DNA of 64,000 bases from Strigamia acuminata (taxonomy: Eukaryota > Arthropoda > Chilopoda > Geophilomorpha > Linotaeniidae): the NCBI GenBank assembly GCA_949358305.1, contig OX442324.1:3602001-3666000 (forward strand). The letters are read 5' to 3'. A program made the translations under genes and the position numbers. This document shows positions 291 through 62,673 of the stretch, piece after piece; the first letter of the stretch is position 1; each line of letters starts with the position of its first letter. Below the pieces are notes generated by a model. The model did not search any database, had not been told where the DNA came from, and was given only the letters and a program-made list of their open reading frames with translations.

Positions 291-1005
291 TTATACTTTA
301 AATAAAAAAAAAAAATAATTTACAAGTTTGTCGATTTTGGTCTGTGGTGACAAATATATATTTTGAATGAAGATTGGTGATTGAATTACAGGTTGATGTG
401 TTGGACCACGTGTAGTAGGGGAAGTGGTGGTCATACTGGAAGTGGTGGTCATATTGGAAGTGGTGGTCATATTGGAAGTGGTGGTCATATTGGAAGTGGT
501 GGTCATATTGGAAGTGGTGGTCATATTGGAAGTGCTAGTGTGCACAGAGGTACTGATGCTGGTGTCCGTAATGGACATGGTGGTGTCTGTAATGGTCATG
601 GTGGTTTTCATAGACCCCGTGGTGTTGTCCTTGGGTGACATGGTGGTGGGGACGGGGGTAGTCATGATTTGGCTAGATGTTGATCCATTTGACGGCCTCG
701 GTACCACTAAGGGTATGGGTAGGTATATGTGGGGTGGTAAAGGTATGTCTCGTTTAAGTGGTAGTGGTAAATCTGTAGTCGGTTTGAAATTTTTCTGATG
801 GTTTACTCGAAGGTTGAATGATTTTTTGTTGCTGGGATTTCTGCGACGAAATGAAACTAGAAGGGGAAGACAAAAAAGAAAAGGCTCGTGTTTATATTTC
901 CAATTTTGATCACTTAATTTTCTTTTTTATTGTATTACCTGTTTGTATGTTTTCCAACTTCACTGAAACTAATACCAGCAATACTAACAAATATTTTCCT
1001 TTCAT
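291..1005 (-). CDS. Secreted Thr/Ser-rich mucin-like protein, 210 aa, two exons
   Basis: Exons on the minus strand: 1005-939 and 856-291. The total of 633 nt is a multiple of three. Exon 1 encodes a classic signal peptide (MKGKYLLVLLVLVSV) and ends at a phase-1 GT donor. Exon 2 follows a strong pyrimidine tract and AG. The mature chain begins with a basic segment, passes through a Pro/Leu-rich stretch, and then becomes Thr/Ser/Met-rich. Five copies of TSNMTT and one TSSMTT are encoded by an 18-bp tandem repeat and carry NxT glycosylation sequons. I see no cysteine in the mature part. This composition is typical of secreted, heavily O-glycosylated mucin-like proteins. The family is not recognised. 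It is the last member of a minus-strand run of signal-peptide genes, 269 bp beyond the aminotransferase-like gene. The gene is probable; the function is inferred from composition only. Confidence 0.7.
424..540 (-). repeat. 18-bp in-frame minisatellite in the mucin-like gene
   Basis: About six copies of an 18-bp unit (GGTCATATTGGAAGTGGT on the plus strand) lie head to tail. On the minus strand each encodes six residues, TSNMTT. The copies differ by only one or two bases, so the array looks young and probably varies in length between individuals. Confidence 0.9.
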
Positions 1006-1273: not shown

Positions 1274-4200
1274 TTAAAATTTCCAATCTGAACTTTCAAA
1301 TCCTTGAAAACCTAAGTCTTCGCCAAAGATGTCATCTGCATAGCTCTTGAAGTTATTTTTTGAAAATTGAAAATTCGACGTGCTTGACGATTTCGAATTT
1401 TTCCAACTGGTGACAATTTCGCTCTGCTGGCCATCCGAATTTGCGTTTTCTGTCGACGAAAAGTGGTGTTGCGTTTTCGTGTGCGCAACTCCAACTTCAT
1501 CGGCCTTATTTGGACGTTTATCCGGCACGGGGTTACGTTTTGCATCCATTCTGATTGCACCCGAACGGACACCCGAAGCACTCGCTGCAGAATTGCCGTT
1601 TAGAGTGGCGTGTGCACCGGGTGGAAGTGGAAGCGAAACATTCATCGATTGAAGTACACTCTTAGCAATTTTGACAAAATCTTTGCAATCGGTCTCGTCA
1701 ATTGCTCCGATGTGGCCGATTCTAAACGTCGGCGGATCTGTCAAACTGACAGGCGAGATGAACACATCTGAAGAAGAAAATGACCCATTAAACGTCATTA
1801 CACGCTACAGTGGCGCTGCGATATGACCTTTAGCCTCGAGTTGTTGTTGGAATGTGCTGAAGTTGAATACGTGTTGAGGGAAATAAAAAGCAGTTAGAAT
1901 GGAGGCTGCTGCTGAAGAATTGAGCGCGATTAAAGGCACGAATCCCATGTTTACAAACTCGGTTTGAATTGCGTCATGGTTTGATTTATACCTGAAACAA
2001 GATTTCTTGGATACAAATTGCTTATTTACGGTACTTGCGGGCTTTATGACCCTTGGAAACCTTTTAATTCTTGTCTGAATTCCTTCTTTGATGAATTCAG
2101 CTATGGCTTGATGGGTTGCTGCAAATAATTGATTTGCTGCTGGAATTCTTGGCATTCCTTCGGCTTCAATAACCTCCAGTTCCTTATTGAGATCCATTGT
2201 ATGAGTAAGAAAGTTTTCTGTTTTTCAGTCAAGTTGGATCAATTAATTGTGGCGTCTACTCCGTTTAAAATAAAGCAACAAATTTGAGTAAAGTTGACAT
2301 GGAATTGTCTGAATTTACGAAAAAATCAGTTTAAATAGAAACTTTGAAGGCATTTGATGTTATGTCAACTTGACACAAATTTCCATTGGTTCGACTACCG
2401 TATTTTACCGATTAAGAGTCGCCCTCGAATAGTAGCCGCGGCTGAGACACCAAGAATACCGTATTTTTGCAAAAGTACGGTATTGTTTCCGTATTTAACT
2501 TCGTTTGTTACATTGAACAAATGTAACGAACGAAAAACCGAAATTGTAATTGCTGACAAAAATGGCAGTTTTGAATAAGAGCCGCGGCTCTTAATCGATA
2601 AAATACGGTATTTCAAATATGAATCTAGGTCAAATGCAATCCTGTTGTTAAAGGGGCAGTAACCAATGGGAATTTTTGCTGCTTTTGTTTGTAAACAATT
2701 GCAGTTTTGAATTACTTTCAGTCTTTTTCAGTGCATCTTTTTTAGCTATGACAAATGATACTCCCTGAAACGCCTGAATGCATCTACCAGGTGACACGAG
2801 TAAATAATGTATGTTGGTGTTGTTGTAAGGAGACTCAAGGCAACCATAAGAAGCAGTTGTGTCTGCTATCAGCACGGCTTTGGGTAAATATTTCACCACA
2901 AGATCGCTGATACTCTGGAGAGGATTTATTATGCCACTGCTTTCTTCGATATGCGCAACAGCAACAGTTGTGTAGTTATCGCTGATTTGTAAATGTTCTT
3001 CAATTTGTCGCAAATTCAGTTGCTCTCCAGCCTTCCAGGTGAGATCAAAACTGTTTAAATTACTTTCAACACTTGTTTTGAGTAGTGCATCACCAGTGAA
3101 TCCATTGCTTAACACCAGAACCTGAAATGTTGAAAAGATTTCATATATATTTTTGTAAATCCAGTGGAAATAGATGCAAAGGGATATCCTATAAAGATTT
3201 TTTCAATGCAGCATCTTTCGTATGAAGGGCTACCCAAAAATAACCCTTTTAGTACAAGCTTCCACTGCTAGGTGAGTCTTGGTGCCTAGAACAGTTGTTC
3301 TGAGAGTGCATTAGGAAACAAATTCCACTTGCTCACATTGTTCATCTAAACCAGTCATTACAAAATCGCCAAATCGCTTTGACTTAAGGTGGAAACACAG
3401 GGGAGTGGGTAAAATTTAAAAGCTTGCTTTTACTTGAAAAAGCGGCTATAAACTTGCCCGCTTGAGCAAACACAAGCTTTCGTTTTTATTCAAATCTTTG
3501 TTTTAAAGCGAGCTTGTACTCACCCGCTCCGATCAAACTGAGTTTGTCATGTGACTTTGACAGCCATTCAGAATCGTGAGGAAATTCTTGGAGGAGATTT
3601 TGGCGGGAATTTTTGGCAGCCAGCTAGCTTGAGTTTGTCAGTTAAGCTGGTAAGCCAAAAGCGGGTCAAGTGAGCTTGTAAATGACTTCCCTCTTTAAAC
3701 TCGTACTATCAAGCTTTGGAATTTTACCCGCTCTCTTAAGTCTCCGAAAAAATTCACTGAAGTTGAATGCAGCGTCTCTCAACAACTCCAGATGAAAGAC
3801 TGATGTAGATAGGTTCCTAGAAGACTCACCTAGCAGGGGAAGCTTGTATTAAAAGGGGTCTGCCCACCTGAAGAGAATTCCGGTTATTTTTGGGTACCCC
3901 CTCGTATAAGCTTATATACGAAAATTCATGGTCTTTACTCCCATCTCCAAATTTCTGGTTGAAAAAATTGTCCAAACCTTTCCACTCTTGGGTGTTGCTG
4001 TTCTCAGAGTAGATTCAACTGCAAAGGCATCCGATCCTTGAATTGGTATCGTAGTGTAATCATCTTGGGACAATCCTTAATCCAAAATATGATATTTTAA
4101 GCTGAATCAATTTCCAAGGACTAAAGCAAACCTCCAATCAAAAGAAGATCTCTGCGGATGTCCTGAATAATGCTCTTCGCAAACTGCTCGTAGTTACCGA

Positions 4201-4396
4201 TGTCACAGGCAAAAGCTTCCTTAACACTTGCAGAGGTCATACCGTTTTCAGGAGTAAATATTTTCATTTTACGCCCTTAAATTTGAGACAAACTTGAATT
4301 CAAAGACAAGCACAATTTGTTATATAAAAAAAACACACACACACCTTGCAGGAAATGACCATTGACTAGAATGACGACGCAAAAGAATAACTTCAT
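1274..4396 (-). CDS. Secreted PhnW-like class-V aminotransferase homologue lacking the PLP lysine, 504 aa, seven exons
   Basis: Exons: 4396-4345, 4275-4132, 4075-3978, 3121-2716, 2217-2061, 1991-1828, 1767-1274 (1515 nt, in frame). Exon 1 encodes a signal peptide (MKLFFCVVILVNGHFLQ). The rest aligns by eye with 2-aminoethylphosphonate:pyruvate transaminase: FTPENGMTSASVKEA at the start, QGSDAFAVES, HIEESSGIINP, DTTASYG with the PLP-pyridine Asp, and FRIGHIG with the substrate-binding Arg. The family's Schiff-base Lys (in S-A-N-K-C-I-Q-G) is Arg here (SPGRCIQA, codon 2785-2783). The family's P-T-H-T segment reads PAANQ. A low-complexity Ser/Lys-rich tail of roughly 100 residues follows the normal end. 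Transaminase activity is therefore unlikely, and a binding or structural role in the secretory pathway is inferred. An AATAAA lies at 1242-1237. The fold assignment is secure; the function is not. Confidence 0.85.
2396..2610. mobile_element. MITE, about 215 bp, in intron 4 of the PhnW-like gene
   Basis: The two ends are inverted copies: TACCGTATTTTACCGATTAA on the left and the complement of TACCGTATTTTATCGATTAA on the right. The repeat continues inward to a GAGCCGCGGCTC core-like segment. TA at both edges is compatible with a TA target duplication of a Tc1/mariner-like element. No transposase is present. A further copy of the ACCGTATTTT motif lies inside. Confidence 0.75.
3219..3907. mobile_element. 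Non-autonomous DNA transposon (about 690 bp) in intron 3 of the PhnW-like gene
   Basis: Long terminal inverted repeats of about 90-100 bp: the left end reads CGTATGAAGGGCTACCCAAA and the right end, on the minus strand, ATACGAGGGGGTACCCAAAA. Both are followed by AAATAACC and, further in, by AAGCTTCC...CTGCTAGGTGAGTCTT. No coding capacity is seen. It holds a second inverted pair internally. Confidence 0.75.
3382..3741. mobile_element. Nested inverted-repeat element inside the 3219-3907 transposon
   Basis: The motif GAGTGGGTAAAATT...AAGCTTG near 3395-3425 is repeated in inverse orientation near 3711-3735 (CAAGCTTTGGAATTTTACCC). CTTAAG or a similar sequence lies outside both ends. This looks like a later insertion, or the inner part of a compound element. 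Boundaries are approximate. Confidence 0.5.
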
Positions 4397-4591
4397 TCTG
4401 CTTAAAATGTGAGTTGAATATTCGATCAAACCATGTACCATCACATAGCAAATTAATGTTTTCACGACTCTTTGTTGTGAGCGGTTGATGAAGCAATTAA
4501 AACAAACAAACAGTTTAATTAAATTGTGCAATTGAAACGTCAAAATGAGCTTTTATTACATTCGTACACACAAGTAAGTGTTTGATAAATA

Positions 4592-5318
4592 TTACTGAAA
4601 ATGTGATACAGGAATGTATATAGTTCCATATGACTGAGCTCCAACAGTTCCTCTCAGCTTTGATATTTCCAGTTCCAAAACTGAGATTTGCACTTGAAAA
4701 TCTTCGACTAATACATGCTGCTGGTCGTATGCCACCATTATTTTGTCCATCAGTGTTTTCAAATTATTGATTCCACTGATCAGTTTATTTTCTAACTTCA
4801 CCTGTTCTGGTACAAAGCCTTCCAATTCCTTCAGCCTGTCGTCGAAACTGCTTAGCTCTGCAGCTTGACCTTCTTCTGAGTGCAAATGAGTCAACTGGGT
4901 TTGCAGGCTTTTGATTTGATCTTGGATCTGCAAATGAGTGAACTGGGTCAACTGGGTTTGCAGGCTTTTGATTTGATCTTGGATCTGCGAAGCGGACAGC
5001 GTGCGTTCCCTAACGCTTACTGGCGATTCAGTATCTACGCTTGTTTGAATATTTGTATTTTTCTCTTGTTTATTGTGGTGCCGCTTTTTTAAGTAGTTAT
5101 TAAACGATTTAGCCTGGTGACGTCTCTTTTCCGCAATGTAATTGTAATTCGGATAGTGACTGATGTACTATGGAATTGAATTCATCTTTGTAAACTTGTA
5201 ATCAAAGGGAGGTTAGACATTTTGTTTTCTTACTACGTGATTGTCTGTCTGACAAAATCAGTTGGAATTGAATGATAGTTAAAACTGTCAGTAGGATAAT
5301 TGAAGCGCTGTGTTTCAT
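4592..5318 (-). CDS. Secreted coiled-coil protein with internal 19-residue duplication, 175 aa, two exons
   Basis: Exon 1 (5318-5234) starts MKHSASIILLTVLTIIQFQL, a signal peptide, and ends at a phase-1 GTAAGA donor. Exon 2 (5034-4592) gives a total of 528 nt in frame. The acceptor at 5035 is chosen because it restores the phase-1 frame. The open frame runs further upstream, so this boundary is the weakest point of the model. The mature protein is Gln/Leu/Ile/Glu-rich with heptad spacing (IQDQIKSLQTQLT occurs twice), predicting an alpha-helical coiled coil over most of its length. No cysteines are seen. AATAAA lies at 4557-4552, 35 nt after the stop. It starts 196 bp upstream of the PhnW-like gene on the same strand. 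The family is unknown. Confidence 0.65.
4891..4990 (-). repeat. 57-bp in-frame duplication in the coiled-coil gene
   Basis: The segment starting TCAACTGGGTTTGCAGGCTT at 4891 recurs at 4948, a 57-bp period, nearly identical for about 40 bp. The period equals 19 codons and so keeps the reading frame. Confidence 0.9.
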
Positions 5319-5895: not shown

Positions 5896-6449
5896 TTAGG
5901 ATTTATTACTAGTTTTCCATTGCTGGAGAAGTTCATTGGCATGTACCAGATGTATGTTTAGTTCTCTCAAATAGTGTTTGGCTGATATTTGGTCTTCTTG
6001 TATCATCTGGGCAATTTGTTTGACCCATTCGAAATCCCACTGCCACATTCGGTGTTGCCATACCCCCAAGTGCGCTTCAAACTCCAGCTCGTTGATTCGC
6101 TCATCCACCGTCAGCGAATTCTTGTCGATTTTCCTCCTCTCAGCGATCAATTCGCCTAACATTTGTTGCAATTTTGCACGGTCTTTAGGCAGAAAGGAGT
6201 TGTCCGACGCCGGTTTTAATGGCCCGAGCCGAATTCCTCCTGGACGAAGCGGATGACCGCTGTGTTGGCTCCCTTCGTTAATATTTTGTCCGAAGTATCC
6301 TCCTAGGCTTGCTACAGTACATTTTGAAAGCGAATTGTTGCAATGAATAATAAATATGCCGTAAAAATGAAATTGTTCTTACTTTCCAATTGAATACTGC
6401 CAATAAGAATTAAGAAAAAAAAGTGAAAAGGAAAAGCCGGTCCGGTCAT
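5896..6449 (-). CDS. Secreted Trp-rich helical protein, 160 aa, two exons
   Basis: Exon 1 (6449-6383) encodes MTGPAFPFHFFFLILIGSIQ, a signal peptide, and ends phase 1 at GTAAGA. Exon 2 (6311-5896) follows TGTAG; the total is 483 nt in frame. The mature chain has a Gly/Pro/His-rich N-terminal part (GGYFGQN, HPLRPGG) and then a long predicted helix rich in Glu, Gln, Leu and Ile. The tryptophan cluster WQHRMWQWDFEWV sits near residue 110. No cysteine is seen. TATA-like TTAAATAA lies about 50 bp upstream of the ATG. I do not recognise the family. Neighbours on both sides share the signal-exon/phase-1-intron plan, which supports both the model and a common secretory context. Confidence 0.7.
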
Positions 6450-6761
6450 AGGTGCAGTTTGAATGCTCAAACTTAATAATAAAATGTAAATAACATCCTG
6501 GTTATTTAAGCGTGTAAATGAAGATTTTTAATTTCAACATTTTATATTTAAATACAATAGATTGGTTTCGTTTATTGGCAATTAAACTATTGTGAAAACA
6601 ACACGTGATTTGTTCAAACTATGTGCCAAAACATGGCACAACAGACTCAAATATACCAGAAATAAATTGTGATAAATCAAATGTGTTTAGGTGTTTAGGT
6701 GAAATTTTTGCTTTTAATTTTAATGCTGCCAACTATAAGTAGTACATTGTTAGTGATTGAA

Positions 6762-7787
6762 TCAATAATTGAGGTTGAAATCATATTTTAGATGAATATC
6801 GTCATAATTTTCCCAATATCTTTTTGATTTTTCATCTTTTGATTTTTCATCAGCTGGATGTAAGTGACGTTGCTGCAGCTTGACATCAGCACCTTTTGTG
6901 TGATTGGCGTTTATTTGTACCTCCAATTGCTCGATGTGTTTCTGCAGTTCATTTCCTTCTTTCGTCAGCTCTACCAGTTGTTTTTGCACTTGCTGAATTT
7001 GGCTGTCGAATTTCGACTGCGATTTTGCTTGTATGTTCTCTGGGTGACTTTCTATGGAATTTATTGTTTTCTGCTCTTGGTTATTCAGTCTTGCAACAGC
7101 TCTCTCCACAAACCTGTCTGGATTTAGATCGAGTAGGGTCAGCCTTGCTGGAGAAACTATGGCAACATTGTCGTCTTTCAAGTTTTCTCGTGCTTGTTCT
7201 TGTTGTTCTGCTGCTGCTTCTTGATCTGTTATTTGTTCTTGCTGTCCTGTTGCCGTTTCTTTTTTTAAAACTGGCCAGAATCGCGCAATAAGTTTTTGCA
7301 GTAGTTGTTCAGGAGGAAGTGGGGTTGATGAATCTTCTTTGGTCGATGGTGGTTTGCTTGTTGATGATGGATGGGAGTTTAGCCATGTTGAAAGCAAATT
7401 GAATGAACGCATCTGTAAAAATAAACATTCAGTGTGAATATGTGAAAGTTTTACACATGAATCAAGATTTTCGACCGTCAGCACGTGTCCTTTAGTAGAA
7501 TTTGCATTTATATTGCTATAAAAATCAGAGGACAAGTTGTGGTGGTCGAATAGATTTATTTACTTGATCTTCCAGTGTCTTGTGTGTCGCCAATAAATTG
7601 TCAAAGCGATTGACATTGTTTTCTTGGAAGAAAGAAAATTAATTAATTAATTAATTTTTTTTTTTGAAAAAATTAATTTTTGTAACATAATATATTAATA
7701 AAATTGGGTCTTACCTGAAGGGTCCTGCGAAATTAAGCCAAAATATACTAAGGCACCGACCAACAGAGCTAAAATAAGTTTGCACAT
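6762..7787 (-). CDS. Secreted coiled-coil protein, 260 aa, three exons
   Basis: Exons 7787-7715, 7622-7564 and 7412-6762 (783 nt, in frame). Exon 1 encodes a signal peptide (MCKLILALLVGALVYFGLIS) and ends phase 1. The second intron is phase 0. The mature protein has a Ser/Thr/Pro-rich linker (about residues 58-80), a Gln/Glu/Ala-rich stretch, and then a long coiled-coil region (around IQQVQKQLVELTKEGNELQ) with Leu/Val/Ile heptads. It ends in a Lys/Asp/Tyr-rich tail (YDDIHLKYDFNLNY). There is no cysteine after the signal peptide. The unrecognised family and overall build recall structural secreted proteins such as adhesives, silks or coats, but that is inference. It lies 168 bp downstream of the His-rich gene on the same strand. 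Confidence 0.75.
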
Positions 7788-7954: not shown

Positions 7955-8398
7955 TTAAATATGTCTTCCATGTTTTCCGCTACTCCGGTGTTTACTCTCG
8001 CTGTGGAAAATCTCGTATGTCTTTTCGGATTGTGAGTGTGAATTCTTCGAAGGATTGTGATAATGTTCGTCTTTGATAATTTTATAATGTTGAAATTTAT
8101 CCACGTTGTTTGGGTCGTTTGGTTGTTGCTTGTTGCGTTTGTGCTGGTCACTAGATTCGCTCCAGATCTTCACGTGTCCATTATTGTCCGTGTCGCGAAC
8201 ACTGTACTCTGCATGTTTGGAAAATGGCGGGAAGTCTTTAAATTCTGCAGTTTGAAGTATTAAAAAAAAAAAAATAAATAAGAATGTTTGTTTTCGTGTT
8301 TTTTGAATGTGTATTGGGTTCTTACCGTAAGAGTGGGTGCTGATACAAACATTTGTAATAGTTAGGATAAGCAGTGCATTACAAAGTGCTTTTTTCAT
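7955..8398 (-). CDS. Small secreted His-rich charged protein, 120 aa, two exons
   Basis: Exon 1 (8398-8326) encodes a signal peptide (MKKALCNALLILTITNVCIS) and ends phase 1 at GTAAGA. Exon 2 (8244-7955) follows CTGCAG. The total of 363 nt is in frame. The mature chain of about 97 residues has roughly 11 histidines, many Lys, Asp, Glu, Ser and Asn, no cysteine, and little hydrophobicity, so it is probably disordered or metal- or polyanion-binding. AATAAA at 7886-7881 lies about 70 nt after the stop. It is the most upstream member of the minus-strand cluster that I can see. The family is not recognised. Confidence 0.7.
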   Translation of the reverse strand: MKKALCNALLILTITNVCISTHSYGKNPIHIQKTRKQTFLFIFFFLILQTAEFKDFPPFSKHAEYSVRDTDNNGHVKIWSESSDQHKRNKQQPNDPNNVDKFQHYKIIKDEHYHNPSKNSHSQSEKTYEIFHSESKHRSSGKHGRHI

Positions 8399-8449: not shown

Positions 8450-9320
8450 ATGTGGATGGTTTCAGATTATTTAAATGTATGTAGCAACTATTAAATGTAA
8501 AATTAATTAAGTAGCACGAAGTCCAAAACAAGATCTAGTAATAAAGGTTTATGGACGCTTCTTGTAGACATTTTGTAGACTTCATGTCACAACTTGACAA
8601 CCATTGCAAGATATTTTAATGACATTTTGGAAAACCTAACCTAGATTATTTTTTTTTCCTTTTCTTACAAAATGTGAAATACACAATTTTTTTTAGTTCC
8701 TAATAAATATTTTGAGGTTTGCTTTTGTAAATACATCATAGGGAATATGTTCTCCAAGAGTTTAAAGATTATTTTATATTTTTAAAAGAAAACATTAGAT
8801 TTATTTATATTATAAGAGTTTTTTTTCAAAGACCAACACTTTAGCTATTACAGCTTTTTTGAATGGTTTTGTGCATTCAGACTGTGCTTTGTTTTCGGGT
8901 TACTTTTTGCAGCAAAAAATTAATTTAATATTTGTAATTATTTGTAGGACGTGGTTGTAATAGTTTGCTGGACAGCGGTCACTGATCACCACGAGGGCAC
9001 GGGCCCATGGCATCTCCTTGCGCACCAAACGGTACCCAATTACTGACCATCTCTATTTATTTATTGTGTCGGACGTTTGGGGACGTAATGCTTTAGTTCC
9101 GAAACTTTGGAAATATTGTATTGTGTTTCTGAACACTCGAGACACGATAAAGACTAGCCGAGGTGTTACTCCTTAGTTGTTTTCGCTCATGGATTTCTAT
9201 AAATGCTACCCGCCTGATTTCGCCCCGTTTACTTTTTCTATGGAAATTGCAGTTCTTGTCGTTGCCACCAGATGGTGCAACTAATAAATAACTGACTAAG
9301 TCGAGAACACAGATTAGTTT
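8450..9320. other. Intergenic stretch between the secreted cluster and the satellite
   Basis: No gene supported. The first part is AT-rich. From about 9000 to 9320 the base composition rises and the text resembles a degraded LTR or other repeat fragment (TGTCGGACGTTTGGGGACG near 9067), but no matching partner or target duplication was found. Confidence 0.4.
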
Positions 9321-57424: not shown

Positions 57425-59541
57425 ATGAAGATAATCAAAAGAAGTAATCTCAGCAAACTCTTCCTCATGTTGGAACATGCCTTGGATAAGGAACAAGATT
57501 CGTGGATTCCAAATTCTTATTCATCAGTATTTAATGTGGTTTGTATTTCGCTTGAAATGTCGCATTCTATTTCTATTTATTATACACGTTTAAGATTCTT
57601 AAGAAAAGAAAATTAATATGGCATTGAAGATGTTTGCCAACTGACATTTGAAAGTGTGTCACGGTTTGGATTTAACTTGCCTTCATGGATCTTTTTTTTT
57701 TAAATTTATTTTTAAAAAAAAAGAAAATAATAAAAAAGAAAAAAGATTCATCAGACTTTCAAGTGGGACATCGACCACTACCAAACCAAGTTTGCAAATC
57801 TTGGCCCAAATACCATCAAATCACAAGTTACCCACAGATTTTGGGCAGAAAAGTGGACTTTTGACCTCGTGTTGTTTTATTTTTTAAAAAATATTTATTA
57901 TAAACGGATTTTTTTTCTAATTTTCACTCAAATGTTTGTCTTAAATATTTTGGAACCTTTGGATCAATCGCTGTATAACCTTGGCTGACTTTGGAGTCAT
58001 GTTATATATTTTTTCGTGTAAATTTTTATGGATTGTAATACTAAACATGTATATAAAACCGTGGTTAAATGTACCAAGTTAGAATTAGAAACGAAATTGC
58101 ATGAAATCCGTATAAACAATGGTTAGAGGAGGATTTAATTAACAAGAAAAATTCCCAAAATGGAGAGTTTGAATGGCCAAACAGGTAATCCTTGAGAAGT
58201 AAATAAAAAACTAAAGTTCTTTTCACATGCAAATAGGATTTTTTCCAAACTTTCCCACACGCTAAACCCTAAATTTGTGTATTTAGTGTGCAATTATCAA
58301 ATTAATAATCATATAAAAAATTACTGACTTTGCTTTTTTCCTAATTATTCTTCATCTTATTACAGGAGGATAAAGTTGATGCAAACATTCGAGATGAAAC
58401 CATCCGATGGCTGTTTCTCTTGAATGACCATCTTCAACTGACTCCGGAGACTGCCGTTCTAAGTGCCAATATTCTGGACAGTTTTTTGTGTGTTGTAAAG
58501 GTGATTATTCCCATTCTAGAATTTAAAAAAAAAATCAATTGATTGATTTAAAAAAATAAAATAAAATAAAAAGGCTCGCCCAAAATATCTACAATGCATT
58601 GGAGTCGCCTGTCTCTTCTTAGCAGCCAAACTACTCGAAGAAGACGAGGTAATTTTTAAAATCTAAGCATTCAACCCCCCATTTTTAATCCGATTTGTTT
58701 TGAATAAATTGCAGGTGACACCATCAGTTGAATATCTGGTCGAGGTTACAGCATGCACTTTTTCGGTGGCCGACATTCTACGCATGGAGAAAATCATTCT
58801 CAACAAGCTCGAATGGAACGTCAGACGAGCAACAGCATTAGACTTCATTTACATCGTAAATAAAAATAAAAGTTTTTTGTTTTTTTTTGCATCGATGTCG
58901 AGCAAAAATCTCTCAATTTTCAATTAAATCGATTGAAAATTGAAAAATAATTTGCTCAGACGTTGATGTATAAAAACGCAAAATGTTTTGGCATTCTAAT
59001 AAATATCGACTATTTGATCAGCTGCACGCCATCATCGTCTGTGAAGAACCAAATTTGCTTTCGAAATTCCGACACATGACGGCGGGAAGGCAGTTGTCCG
59101 TACTCGTGCGGAAGATACTTATGTGTCAGGAGAGTTCGGACGTGATTGCCTTTTCCCCCTCGACTCAAGCACTTGCTTTGATCAGTCTGGAGTTGGGTCT
59201 GTGTACGACCGATTGGTTTGCCATCACCATCATGTTGCAGAAACTAGTACAAGTAAAATTTCGTTTTAAAAAAAAAATTAAAACTAAATTTAACCAACTA
59301 AAATCGATAATGGGGTTTTGTTTCGGCGTTGCAGGTGGACAACCGAGAGTTAATTCAGTGCCGAGAAGCCATGACCGCAGCTATGTTGAAGCGAGTGTCG
59401 CATATCGGCAGAGCAGCGACGAGTAAACGCAAAATGGAAGAACTGAACGAAGAGGACGACATATACGGCAGCATCAAGTGTCTTTATGGCGACGAACAGG
59501 CCTGTGTTCAAGATGCAGCTCAGGAAACTGTTGCCGTGTAG
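57425..59541 (+). CDS. CCNI: Cyclin I-like protein (cyclin G/I family), 300 aa, six coding exons
   Basis: Exons 57425-57538, 58366-58500, 58574-58648, 58715-58855, 59022-59252, 59335-59541 (903 nt, in frame). The cyclin box spans about residues 40-150: RDETIRWLFLLNDHLQLTPE, LDSFLCVVKARPKYLQCIGV, CLFLAAKLLEEDE, ILRMEKIILNKLEWNV. The second fold follows (LHAIIVCEEP, LALISLELGL, IQCREAM). These blocks match vertebrate cyclin I more closely than cyclin G as I recall them. The acidic tail of about 50 residues (MEELNEEDDIYGS) has no recognised motif. The 5' UTR is spliced (acceptor at 57395/57396). The exon-1 donor could alternatively be the GTATTT at 57527, also phase 0. AATAAA lies at 60177-60182. 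Cyclin I/G proteins are atypical cyclins of the nucleus and cytoplasm linked to CDK5 or stress control. Confidence 0.93.
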
Positions 59542-60360
59542 GGTTTTGAAACATGTTAGCACATATGTGTTTTAAGAAAGTTTTTGTTTTTCTTTTATTT
59601 TTAAATCAAAATTTCTAAACTATTTTGTCACTGTGTAAATTTGTTGTGAAATACCTTTCAACAGTGCCATCGGAAGAAAAGAGAAGAGTTATTACGGTTC
59701 TAGAATGAATACGAACGTATTTGTATTTTTAAATATTTTTCAGAAAAATTTTCTAGTCTGTAAACAATGTAAGAAATGTTGCACAGCAAAAAAAAAAAAG
59801 AAAGAAAAAAAAACCGCCCTCTCCCCCTCAAAAAAAAATCCCTAAAAGTCTAGGAATCTCAGCTCAATCTGAGTAATTTATTTTTCTAATTTTAAAACGA
59901 TTATTATTTTTTCTTTGCTATGTGTTGTATAGATAGTATTTTAGTGGTTGGAAAAATATTACAAAATTTAAAAGTACAAATAGTCATAATGCAAATTTCT
60001 TGTAAATTTTGTGTTGCTACACACAAGAATGGGCAGTGGTCAGTAAAAAGAAAAAATTTAATTAATAATCAGTAAGGTATCCCTAATTGAATCAAGTTTA
60101 AAAATATAAATGAGAACAAGAGCAATCTAGTCGCCGGAAACGCATGAAATGTGAATTCTCGACAGTGCTAAGTGTAAATAAAATCTGAAGGAAAAAAAAT
60201 GTATTGTTGCCTCGATTATTTAATTCAAACTGAAATTTCCCATTTTTTTTAAGCCCAAAAAGTCTTAATTTTTAGATTAAAAGTACGAAACACTCGTACA
60301 AGATGGCGCTATCAGTTAAACTAAGCCTATTTTTCCTGAACGTTCCACGCGTTCTCACGT
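59542..60360 (+). other. Cyclin 3' UTR and short intergenic spacer
   Basis: AT-rich, with no coding sequence. The polyadenylation signal AATAAA at 60177-60182 probably ends the cyclin transcript about 260 bp before the CFAP298 start codon. Confidence 0.7.
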
Positions 60361-60371
60361 TCTCCACGCCT

Positions 60372-60385
60372 GTTTCCATGGGAAC
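60372..60385 (+). promoter_or_regulatory. X-box (RFX-type) motif upstream of CFAP298
   Basis: GTTTCCATGGGAAC is a near-palindromic fit to the RFX X-box consensus (RYYNYY, two-base spacer, RRNRAC). It lies 54 bp upstream of the ATG of a ciliary gene, where such sites are expected. Confidence 0.65.
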
Positions 60386-60438
60386 AACAAGCAACTTCAG
60401 TACAAACCCTCTTGTTCGCGTGTGGGGAAGGAGTGAAG

Positions 60439-62673
60439 ATGGTCCAGCTTCACATTAAAAACGGAATTGCCAGCCAGTTTCTATTCGAAACAACTGTTCG
60501 GGCAGACGTTAAGGACATCCTCAGGGATGTCGTCGCTATTTACAATGGTCGACTCAAAATCGAACGTGTTTGTGCGGAAATTGAGAACATGGCCGATCAT
60601 GGAACATTTCTCCCGCACAATATGCAAGGCCTAACTGACGAACAGATTGATGAATTGCATTTGGTGGACGAATGGAGCGCGAAATGTGTCCCGAGTGGCG
60701 GGTCCGTGGAAAACAACGATCCCATTGGAAGACGAAACGGAAAAGGTGAAGAAAAAAAAAAGACGAAAGAAATTAATTGAATTATTTACTGTGTTTGTTT
60801 CCAGCACCGAATGACAAAATGAGAAAACTTCTTAAGAAAACCGTGTCTGAAGTCAAAGCTGTAATTTCGAAGGTAAAAAAGGTTTTAAAAAAATTTCAAA
60901 TTATTTTTCAATTTATTTTTGTTTTGACATCATTTAGAAAATTATCGATGCTGGAATGACCCTAACCCAAGCAATTGTTCAAAGCCAACTTTCACTTTTA
61001 CGTGGAGCACTGACTATTGTTTATCCAATGGGTCTACCAACTCACGACCCCATTCGAATGGAATTGGAAAACCGAGAAGATTTGACAGGGACACAGGTAA
61101 ACTAAATCGTGACGGTTAAACTGCATATTAAAGTCATTTAAACTGCAAATCGCAACACGCTTTTTGGCATTTTTCTCACTGAAACTATTCGTTAGTGCAA
61201 TCTATGAGGAATTTTAAATCTAAATGACTTTTCGGATGCAAACAGTGTAGTTTAGACTTATTTCTAGAACTTTTCACTTTATTGTAGGCATCGCTCGAGG
61301 TTTTGGACGAATGTGCAACCGAAATGTGGCTGGCTGGAAAGGAATTGGCTACCGACAAAAAGTTGGAATTTTACGTTGGGAAAAACGAAAAAAGCAAACT
61401 GATCGTGAAGCTGCAGAAGGTAAGTGGAAGTCGAGCAAGCATCGCAGCTGTTAGCTCCATCTTGTGCCACTTGTTAAAGGTTTTCTACCATAAAACAGGG
61501 TAATTCGAAAAGTGATTTACTATACTCTTTCCACACTCAAGGTTGACCCTGGAAGCTGGGCTCCCATTGGCCTACTTAGAAATGCAATGCTATATAGTTA
61601 CATTGCAGTTCTAAGTAGGCCAATGGGAGCCCAGCTTCCAGGGTCAACCTTGAGTGTGGAAAGAGTATAGCTACTAAATTACATTTGCACATTTAGTGAG
61701 TAAGGGAGTCGGAAATTGAGGTTTAATCTTCCTGCACAAATGATGAAATTACATCTAAATTCACGCACCAAACGGCCTCAACTGAATTTTTCTGCTTTAA
61801 TATTTCATCACAAACATGTGCAAACTCGTCCTGTAAAAGCACACAAGACAGAAACCATCACTTGAAACCTTTTTTTCCTCTTCAAATTTTAAGTAGTGCA
61901 AATAACAGCAAATTCTACATGTTACAGAAGGGAAAAGGAGCTCCACAACGCGAACCCGTCTTTACTGATCAGGAGAAAAAGGACATGATGATGCACGCCT
62001 TTCGAAAGCAGGAACAGCTAAAGGTATGTTTACATTCTTACGCGCACATTACTGCAAGCAAATGCATATCCCACTGTATGTAAACACACCAGAAGTGCAC
62101 AAATTTGATTTGTCCACTTTGTGGTAAAAAAATGGATGCTGGTGGGAAGTCAGGCGCAGAGAAGCTAGCTGGAAAACCACTTACCGCTCGTGCCATCTTC
62201 CACTAGCTTTGGTCACTTTATGTATCAAGACCAATAAAGGTGCACGGTTTTGGATCAAGTCGAGATAATTTGATTTGATTACTTTTAATTGCATATTTCT
62301 ATGCAATAACCACTTGAATGTATTTGTATTTACATTTTTGACGCTTAGCGTGGTCATGACCCATGAATGCCGGGGCTTCAGATTGCATGTAAATGGACAG
62401 AGGTCGGCTCGGGCTTCTAACAGAAATGTTAATACAGGGGAGGCAAGTCACCTGGTCAGTTTGCGCTCACAGCACCTTGGTTGGGACATGCAAAGCGAAA
62501 CAGTGAAAGAAATCAAAGTGAAGTTGTACAATAATTTTTTTTTTTTTTTTTTATATCTGAAGAAGTTAGCAGAAGACGATGATGACGCTCACATGAATGC
62601 TGAATGGGCTGACAATCTTGCTTTGAAAAAGGCATTTCATGGAGTTGCGAATGTTAGTTGGCATCCAAAATAA
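60439..62673 (+). CDS. CFAP298: CFAP298 (C21orf59/Kurly), cilia and flagella associated protein, 290 aa, six exons
   Basis: Exons 60439-60745, 60805-60872, 60938-61096, 61288-61419, 61928-62023, 62563-62673 (873 nt, in frame). The 290-aa length equals the human protein as I recall it. Diagnostic blocks are visible along the whole chain: MVQLHIKNGIASQFLFET at the start, YNGRLKIERVCAEIE, HNMQGLTDEQIDEL, DEWSAKCVPSGG, IGRRNGKAPNDKM, LTIVYPMGLPTHDPIRME, FYVGKNEKSKLIVK, and an end of DDDDAHMNAEWADN...HGV. The protein is needed in the cytoplasm for assembly of outer dynein arms and for planar polarity of motile cilia in vertebrates. A retained, intact copy implies motile cilia or flagella (at least sperm). 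It sits head-to-tail behind the cyclin gene. Confidence 0.97.
61521..61669. repeat. 149-bp hairpin in CFAP298 intron 4
   Basis: Two 69-bp arms (61521-61589 and 61601-61669) are perfect inverted copies apart from one mismatch, around an 11-base loop (CTATATAGTTA). Ends read TATACTCTTTCC...GGAAAGAGTATA. It could be a very young foldback MITE or the source of a hairpin RNA. Confidence 0.9.

Follow-up and report, generated by a model that had tools for sequence, protein, structure and literature searches.

A lysine-less PhnW homolog with a signal-peptide-like leader in a cluster of orphan predicted-secreted genes of the centipede Strigamia acuminata

What becomes of an aminotransferase whose catalytic lysine has been replaced and whose first exon resembles a signal peptide? 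The question is raised by a gene at positions 4396-1274 (minus strand) of a window of 64,000 nucleotides from the centipede Strigamia acuminata (assembly GCA_949358305.1, contig OX442324.1, positions 3,602,001 to 3,666,000 of the forward strand), which encodes a homolog of PhnW, the 2-aminoethylphosphonate (AEP) transaminase. Judging from sequence comparisons, we consider it probable that the product is a secreted, catalytically dead duplicate of the animal's own PhnW, built on the fold of a pyridoxal phosphate (PLP) enzyme, and that it serves as a structural or binding component of an exocrine secretion, with a glue favored over a venom.

The gene comprises seven exons and 504 codons with no internal stop, has GT-AG borders at all six introns, and is followed by an AATAAA motif, read from the sequence, ~30 bases past the stop codon. 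Exon 1 (4396-4345) encodes a signal-peptide-like leader, MKLFFCVVILVNGHFLQ, and ends in a phase-1 donor; the PhnW core begins in exon 2 (4275-4132; GRKMKIFTPEN...), which also contains Met21, and continues through exon 3 (4075-3978), exon 4 (3121-2716), exon 5 (2217-2061), exon 6 (1991-1828), and exon 7 (1767-1274). Residues 22-384 are of the PhnW type and cover the full catalytic domain, bearing out the family assignment made by an initial annotation of the locus: TIGR03301 matches residues 24-378 (E 4.7e-72), followed by NF010006 (4.2e-70) and TIGR02326 (2.1e-65), the Pfam match is Aminotran_5, and the nearest solved structures are PhnW entries of the PDB (7e7g, 9kk8, 9kka, and 1m32; E 3e-42 to 5e-35). 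The protein nonetheless falls below all three PhnW equivalog cut-offs (243.3 vs 360.8, 236.7 vs 296, and 221.2 vs 400.8 bits). The low-complexity tail that had been noted is present, although it runs for 120 residues from residue 385 rather than about 100, and is encoded by exon 7. Four glycosylation sequons occur in residues 21-384 and five overall, a count that is uninformative given the 0-4 found in homologs. Two of the introns carry inverted repeats. Those in intron 4 (2396-2610) are 27 bases long, 93% complementary, and separated by 161 bases, similar to a small miniature inverted-repeat transposable element; those in intron 3 (3221-3906) are nested (37 bases at 95% and 25 bases at 88%, lying 540-636 bases apart) and resemble a transposon-derived element.

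The first step toward an answer is the state of the active site. A homolog search that scored 8000 candidates returned 28 proteins, the closest 35% identical among the matches listed; few of them bear a name, and those with one are bacterial or carry no organism. The position of the Schiff-base lysine, reported as an arginine in the initial annotation, is indeed occupied by R211 (codon AGA, 2785-2783, within exon 4), which aligns without local gaps to a lysine in 27/27 homologs examined. In the structure alignment the corresponding residue is a lysine in 9kk8 and a methionine in the chain of 9kka, which we read as a deliberately engineered mutant of the catalytic residue. An alternative lysine for this role was sought by aligning structures and homologs and was ruled out: there is no gap nearby, and C212, S208, and G218 are aligned. 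Likewise, the PAANQ segment corresponds to TPPTH in homologs and to TSPTH in 1m32.

The active-site changes first described are real, but they understate the loss. Across 58 near-invariant positions, defined from 27 of the 28 homologs (P0001-P0027; P0028 was left out), the window protein keeps 35, including D185, R356, many glycines, and core residues, and has changed 23. By hand count, 18 of these 23 losses fall in the motifs TPGP, GSGT, NGAYGxR, ETT, DAMSS, NKC, RFTPPTH, and YPGK, which we take to line the site of PLP and substrate binding in class V aminotransferases. GSGT has become GSDA in exon 3, NGAYG has become NGFTG and SSxNKC has become SPGRC in exon 4, RFTPPTH has become RIPAANQ in exon 5, and YPGK has become SPVS in exon 7; GSGT and PPTH, now GSDA and AANQ, are presumably the motifs that bind the PLP phosphate. 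In a leave-one-out control, 25 of the 27 homologs keep 54-58 of 58-61 such positions, and two fusion proteins keep 58/75 (P0026) and 57/75 (P0027). Near-invariant columns are inherently rich in active-site residues, so that the pattern of loss is by itself no measure of selection.

Could such a protein still be active? A PLP-independent or otherwise altered enzyme would have to rely on the retained aspartate and arginine, and both are in place: D185 (exon 4) and R356 (in the FRIG motif of exon 7) are, as we assume, the pyridine aspartate and the substrate arginine. A hand count on the 1m32 alignment pairs K193, D167, and R339 of the chain with R211, D185, and R356, consistent with the numbering that we take for that enzyme (Lys194, Asp168, and Arg340), the chain numbers being one lower. 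The motifs presumed to bind phosphate and stack against the ring are gone, however (GSGT to GSDA, NGAYG to NGFTG, and PPTH to AANQ), and continued activity of this kind seems very improbable.

The divergence of this copy could also reflect a pseudogene in early decay or an error of sequence or assembly, and it has been rapid (mean identity to the 27 homologs is 30.8%, vs 45.6% for the paralog described below). Against this stand seven clean exons with no stop, the 35 of 58 near-invariant positions that are kept (D185 and R356 among them), and an assembly built, according to part of its published description, from 98-fold HiFi reads (PMC10556566). When the coding sequence was allowed to drift neutrally to 33% identity, the frame stayed open in 0/200 simulations (mean 11.4 stops), which argues that it was maintained through most of the divergence. 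Decay or artifact is accordingly the least credible explanation of those weighed here, and the view of the gene as an intact frame over seven exons holds. With an essential catalytic residue absent and a frame held open beyond the reach of drift, the product would qualify as a pseudoenzyme, one that probably retains the PLP fold.

The second step concerns origin. The intact paralog suggested as a check exists: a PhnW gene at C4:13824953-13826618 has eight exons and encodes 400 residues, with the lysine present at residue 222, opposite R211. It scores above the same three equivalog cut-offs (447.6 vs 296, 423.8 vs 400.8, and 417 vs 360.8) and keeps 56/58 near-invariant positions; 23 losses are unique to the window copy and two to the C4 copy. 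Whichever of the two proteins was used to search the whole genome, the best candidates scored at E <= 10 comprised these two loci and no other. The C4 copy has a mean identity of 45.6% to the 27 homologs, as against the 30.8% of the window copy, which is the closer of the two in 0/27 cases. Five internal introns are common to both genes, in the same alignment column and the same phase (1, 0, 1, 2, and 1), and under random placement the chance of five such coincidences is P ~5e-13 (4.5e-13); an additional intron occurs in the C4 gene. The shared introns indicate that the window gene arose by duplication of PhnW. A recent bacterial transfer of the C4 copy was considered and rejected, in that a contig scan matched 26 pattern stretches and found no relative, a result that counts only against a close bacterial relative. 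A narrower homolog search with residues 140-240 gave zero matches among 124 candidates and missed known homologs as well; it therefore says little, and absence of the gene from Strigamia maritima is not established by it.

Apart from the two PhnW copies, the genome contains four exon-sized pieces resembling the phosphonatase PhnX (C5:8436211-8437678, plus strand), which together span positions 8-251 of the 251 in TIGR01422. The best piece reaches E 3e-33 and 121.6 bits (cut-off 220), and every piece lies below the cut-off, as do TIGR01422 signals in 13/14 control genomes; a pathway for AEP breakdown is thus only suggested.

The third step is the leader. In both copies the leader has an exon to itself, upstream of the enzyme part, and the phase-1 intron that ends this exon lies five residues ahead of the conserved I/L-F-T-P motif in the window copy and seven ahead of it in the C4 copy. 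The window leader (residues 1-20) is short and hydrophobic (the best 18 residues average 0.54), with a hydrophobic moment of 0.22, three K/R, and no D/E, and the (-3,-1) rule allows cleavage after residues 13 and 18; hydropathy and permitted cleavage sites are compatible with the earlier description of a signal-peptide-like exon joined by a phase-1 intron. The C4 leader, MLLKIATRISKCAIKSAQQSQFSISA (residues 1-29), has a hydrophobic moment of 0.62, four K/R, no D/E, and 13 S/T/A. By these features the window leader looks like a signal peptide and the C4 leader like a mitochondrial presequence. Both assignments rest on composition, with hydropathy and the (-3,-1) rule considered for the window leader.

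The fourth step is the genomic setting. The window gene is one of nine predicted-secreted genes that extend over ~14 kb, from window position 8398 to 4.4 kb in the stretch L002 beyond the window, all on the minus strand and all combining a signal-like exon with a phase-1 intron (partly recognized by eye, which for the intron of the gene at L002 5314 is the sole basis). Over 304 contiguous kb, an automatic scan found 10 candidates with this architecture, seven of them within 11.6 kb here and all seven on the minus strand; its filters missed the window PhnW gene and the L002 5314 gene. Within the window, the neighbors on the minus strand are a Thr-rich repeat orphan (291..1005), a coiled-coil-like orphan (4592..5318), a further orphan (5896..6449), a second coiled-coil-like orphan (6762..7787), and a His-rich orphan (7955..8398). 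In L002 they are a Pro/Gln/acidic-rich (4432-5314), a coiled-coil-like (6344-6768), and an Ala/Pro-rich (8703-9032) orphan. The products, which look coiled-coil, His-rich, Thr-rich, or Pro/Gln-rich, are almost free of Cys and show no mutual similarity at E 0.01, and no Pfam family was above cut-off in nine stretches searched (eight cluster genes and one unplaced L002 open reading frame, or ORF, at 9.5-10 kb).

The flanks of the cluster, as named by eye from ORFs, encode EOGT-like, PHYH-like, Kelch, RhoA, and LSM3 proteins on one side, and CFAP298-like and cyclin proteins on the other. A Kelch-like exon ~27 kb from the window gene is 78% identical over 100% to T1JAU2 of Strigamia maritima, a match that led a nematode or rotifer origin of the window to be rejected. 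At ~57.3-63 kb of the window, on the plus strand, lie exons that resemble a cyclin (58667-58927) and CFAP298 (60340-60780), again named by eye from ORFs. Between 9639 and 18269 there are several tandem arrays of a 22-base repeat (ATGTGTGCAAAAACGTGGTAAA) with longer higher-order units.

These results suggest a sequence of events. A copy of PhnW would have come to lie within the cluster of secretory genes or close to it and been placed behind a signal-peptide exon, whether or not that exon was captured, and it seems to have exchanged a mitochondrial-like leader for a signal-peptide-like one. Released from catalysis, the PLP pocket would have decayed while core residues of the fold stayed, and a shift of the stop codon would have added the low-complexity, presumably disordered tail, which the C4 paralog lacks. 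The product may then be exported by an exocrine gland and play a structural or ligand-binding role in its secretion. A more specific version, in which the mitochondrial presequence exon was swapped for a signal-peptide exon of the cluster through the common phase-1 intron, yielding a component of glue or venom that acts through its fold only, as a structural element or a ligand binder, and perhaps absorbing a disordered exon of the host gene as its tail, is a tentative proposal that we hold to be somewhat doubtful.

Several observations weigh against the reading of the gene as a secreted PhnW duplicate. In a maximum-likelihood (ML) tree of 24 of the 27 homologs and the two centipede copies, the window copy sits on a very long branch and the two copies are not recovered as sisters (5% of 200 bootstraps), their paralogy resting on the introns; an approximately unbiased (AU) test with 13 of the 27 homologs and both copies did not reject joining them (p 0.265). 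Measured against the core, the positions of the leader introns differ by two residues, and their homology is likely rather than certain. Phase-1 introns are, according to part of PMC1626468, frequent near signal cleavage sites, which makes the leader architecture by itself ordinary. Comparisons of leader and promoter DNA with those of the neighbors gave no significant likeness (best 8/300 shuffles in eight comparisons), and capture from a neighbor is thus not supported. Copying of a neighbor's signal exon, considered as a source of the leader, finds no support in these shuffles, and derivation of the tail from a neighbor is likewise unsupported (best blastp E 0.16). Lastly, translation from Met21 would leave the protein inside the cell, and this codon has an A at -3 and a context equal to that of Met1.

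The last point bears on a further explanation, in which exon 1 is left out of the transcript or not used. The product would then stay inside the cell as a pseudoenzyme and might, for instance, regulate the intact PhnW as its partner, in the manner of SPTLC1 with SPTLC2. Met21 lies two residues past the position of the internal Met30 in the C4 paralog (AAAMDKKLFTP), and a leaderless form is thus possible for both genes. On the other side, exon 1 combines good hydrophobicity with a GT donor in the correct phase, intron 1 would introduce an in-frame stop if retained, the same architecture recurs in the neighboring genes, and the leader of the intact C4 copy looks mitochondrial. An intracellular role is in our view improbable.

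If the product is secreted, the remaining question is its destination. The same duplicate could be a venom component of the forcipular gland, and a portion of PMC6878950 reports two venom peptide families found solely in Strigamia maritima. The main text of neither PMC6878950 nor PMC7864903 contains the words transaminase, phosphonate, or pyridoxal, however, and the neighboring products are Cys-poor and either coiled-coil-like or disordered. For Lithobius, excerpts of PMC11170834 describe disordered and orphan proteins in a glue-like telopodal secretion. The same excerpts name the sternal glands of geophilomorphs as a comparable gland type. A venom role seems rather unlikely, and it is on the character of the neighbors that we prefer the sternal defensive glue of geophilomorphs as the destination, a preference that is a weak inference.

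A secreted PhnW duplicate of this kind would make it possible to trace how a metabolic enzyme of mitochondrial type may turn into a secreted non-enzyme. The same genome still has the intact parent, leader and introns included, so that the order in which leader change, active-site loss, and recruitment occurred can be tested in related centipedes. Two further outcomes are a PhnW gene that looks intact in a centipede, accompanied by a gene tentatively assigned as PhnX-like, and a cluster whose orphan products are predicted to be secreted.

In comparison with known systems, the window protein resembles characterized PhnW (1m32, 7e7g, and 9kk8; TIGR03301/TIGR02326/NF010006) in its homology over residues 22-384 and in the pyridine aspartate and FRIG arginine that it keeps, and differs from it in the missing Schiff-base lysine, the lost pocket motifs, the three failed equivalog cut-offs, the signal-peptide-like leader, and the 120-residue tail. 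With the C4 paralog it shares the column and phase of five internal introns and a leader exon that ends in a phase-1 intron, whereas the paralog has the lysine, 56/58 residues, a mitochondrial-like leader, an extra intron, and no tail. SPTLC1 and antizyme inhibitor are PLP-fold pseudoenzymes that act as intracellular partners or regulators; like them, the window protein appears to keep the fold of a PLP enzyme without its normal catalysis, and unlike them it has a secretory-type leader and sits among predicted-secreted genes. Foreign PhnW transcripts are reported from bdelloid rotifers in part of PMC3499245, and among the literature matches listed there was no report of a secreted, inactive, or lysine-less PhnW in an animal, nor of a PhnW with an apparent secretory destination. 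It is known that a gene may be duplicated and one copy then sent to a new subcellular compartment, as set out in portions of PMC2790464 and PMC2397506; compared with the relocalized duplicates treated there, the window gene would differ in its apparent change from mitochondrion to secretory pathway at the leader exon, coupled with the loss of its active site.

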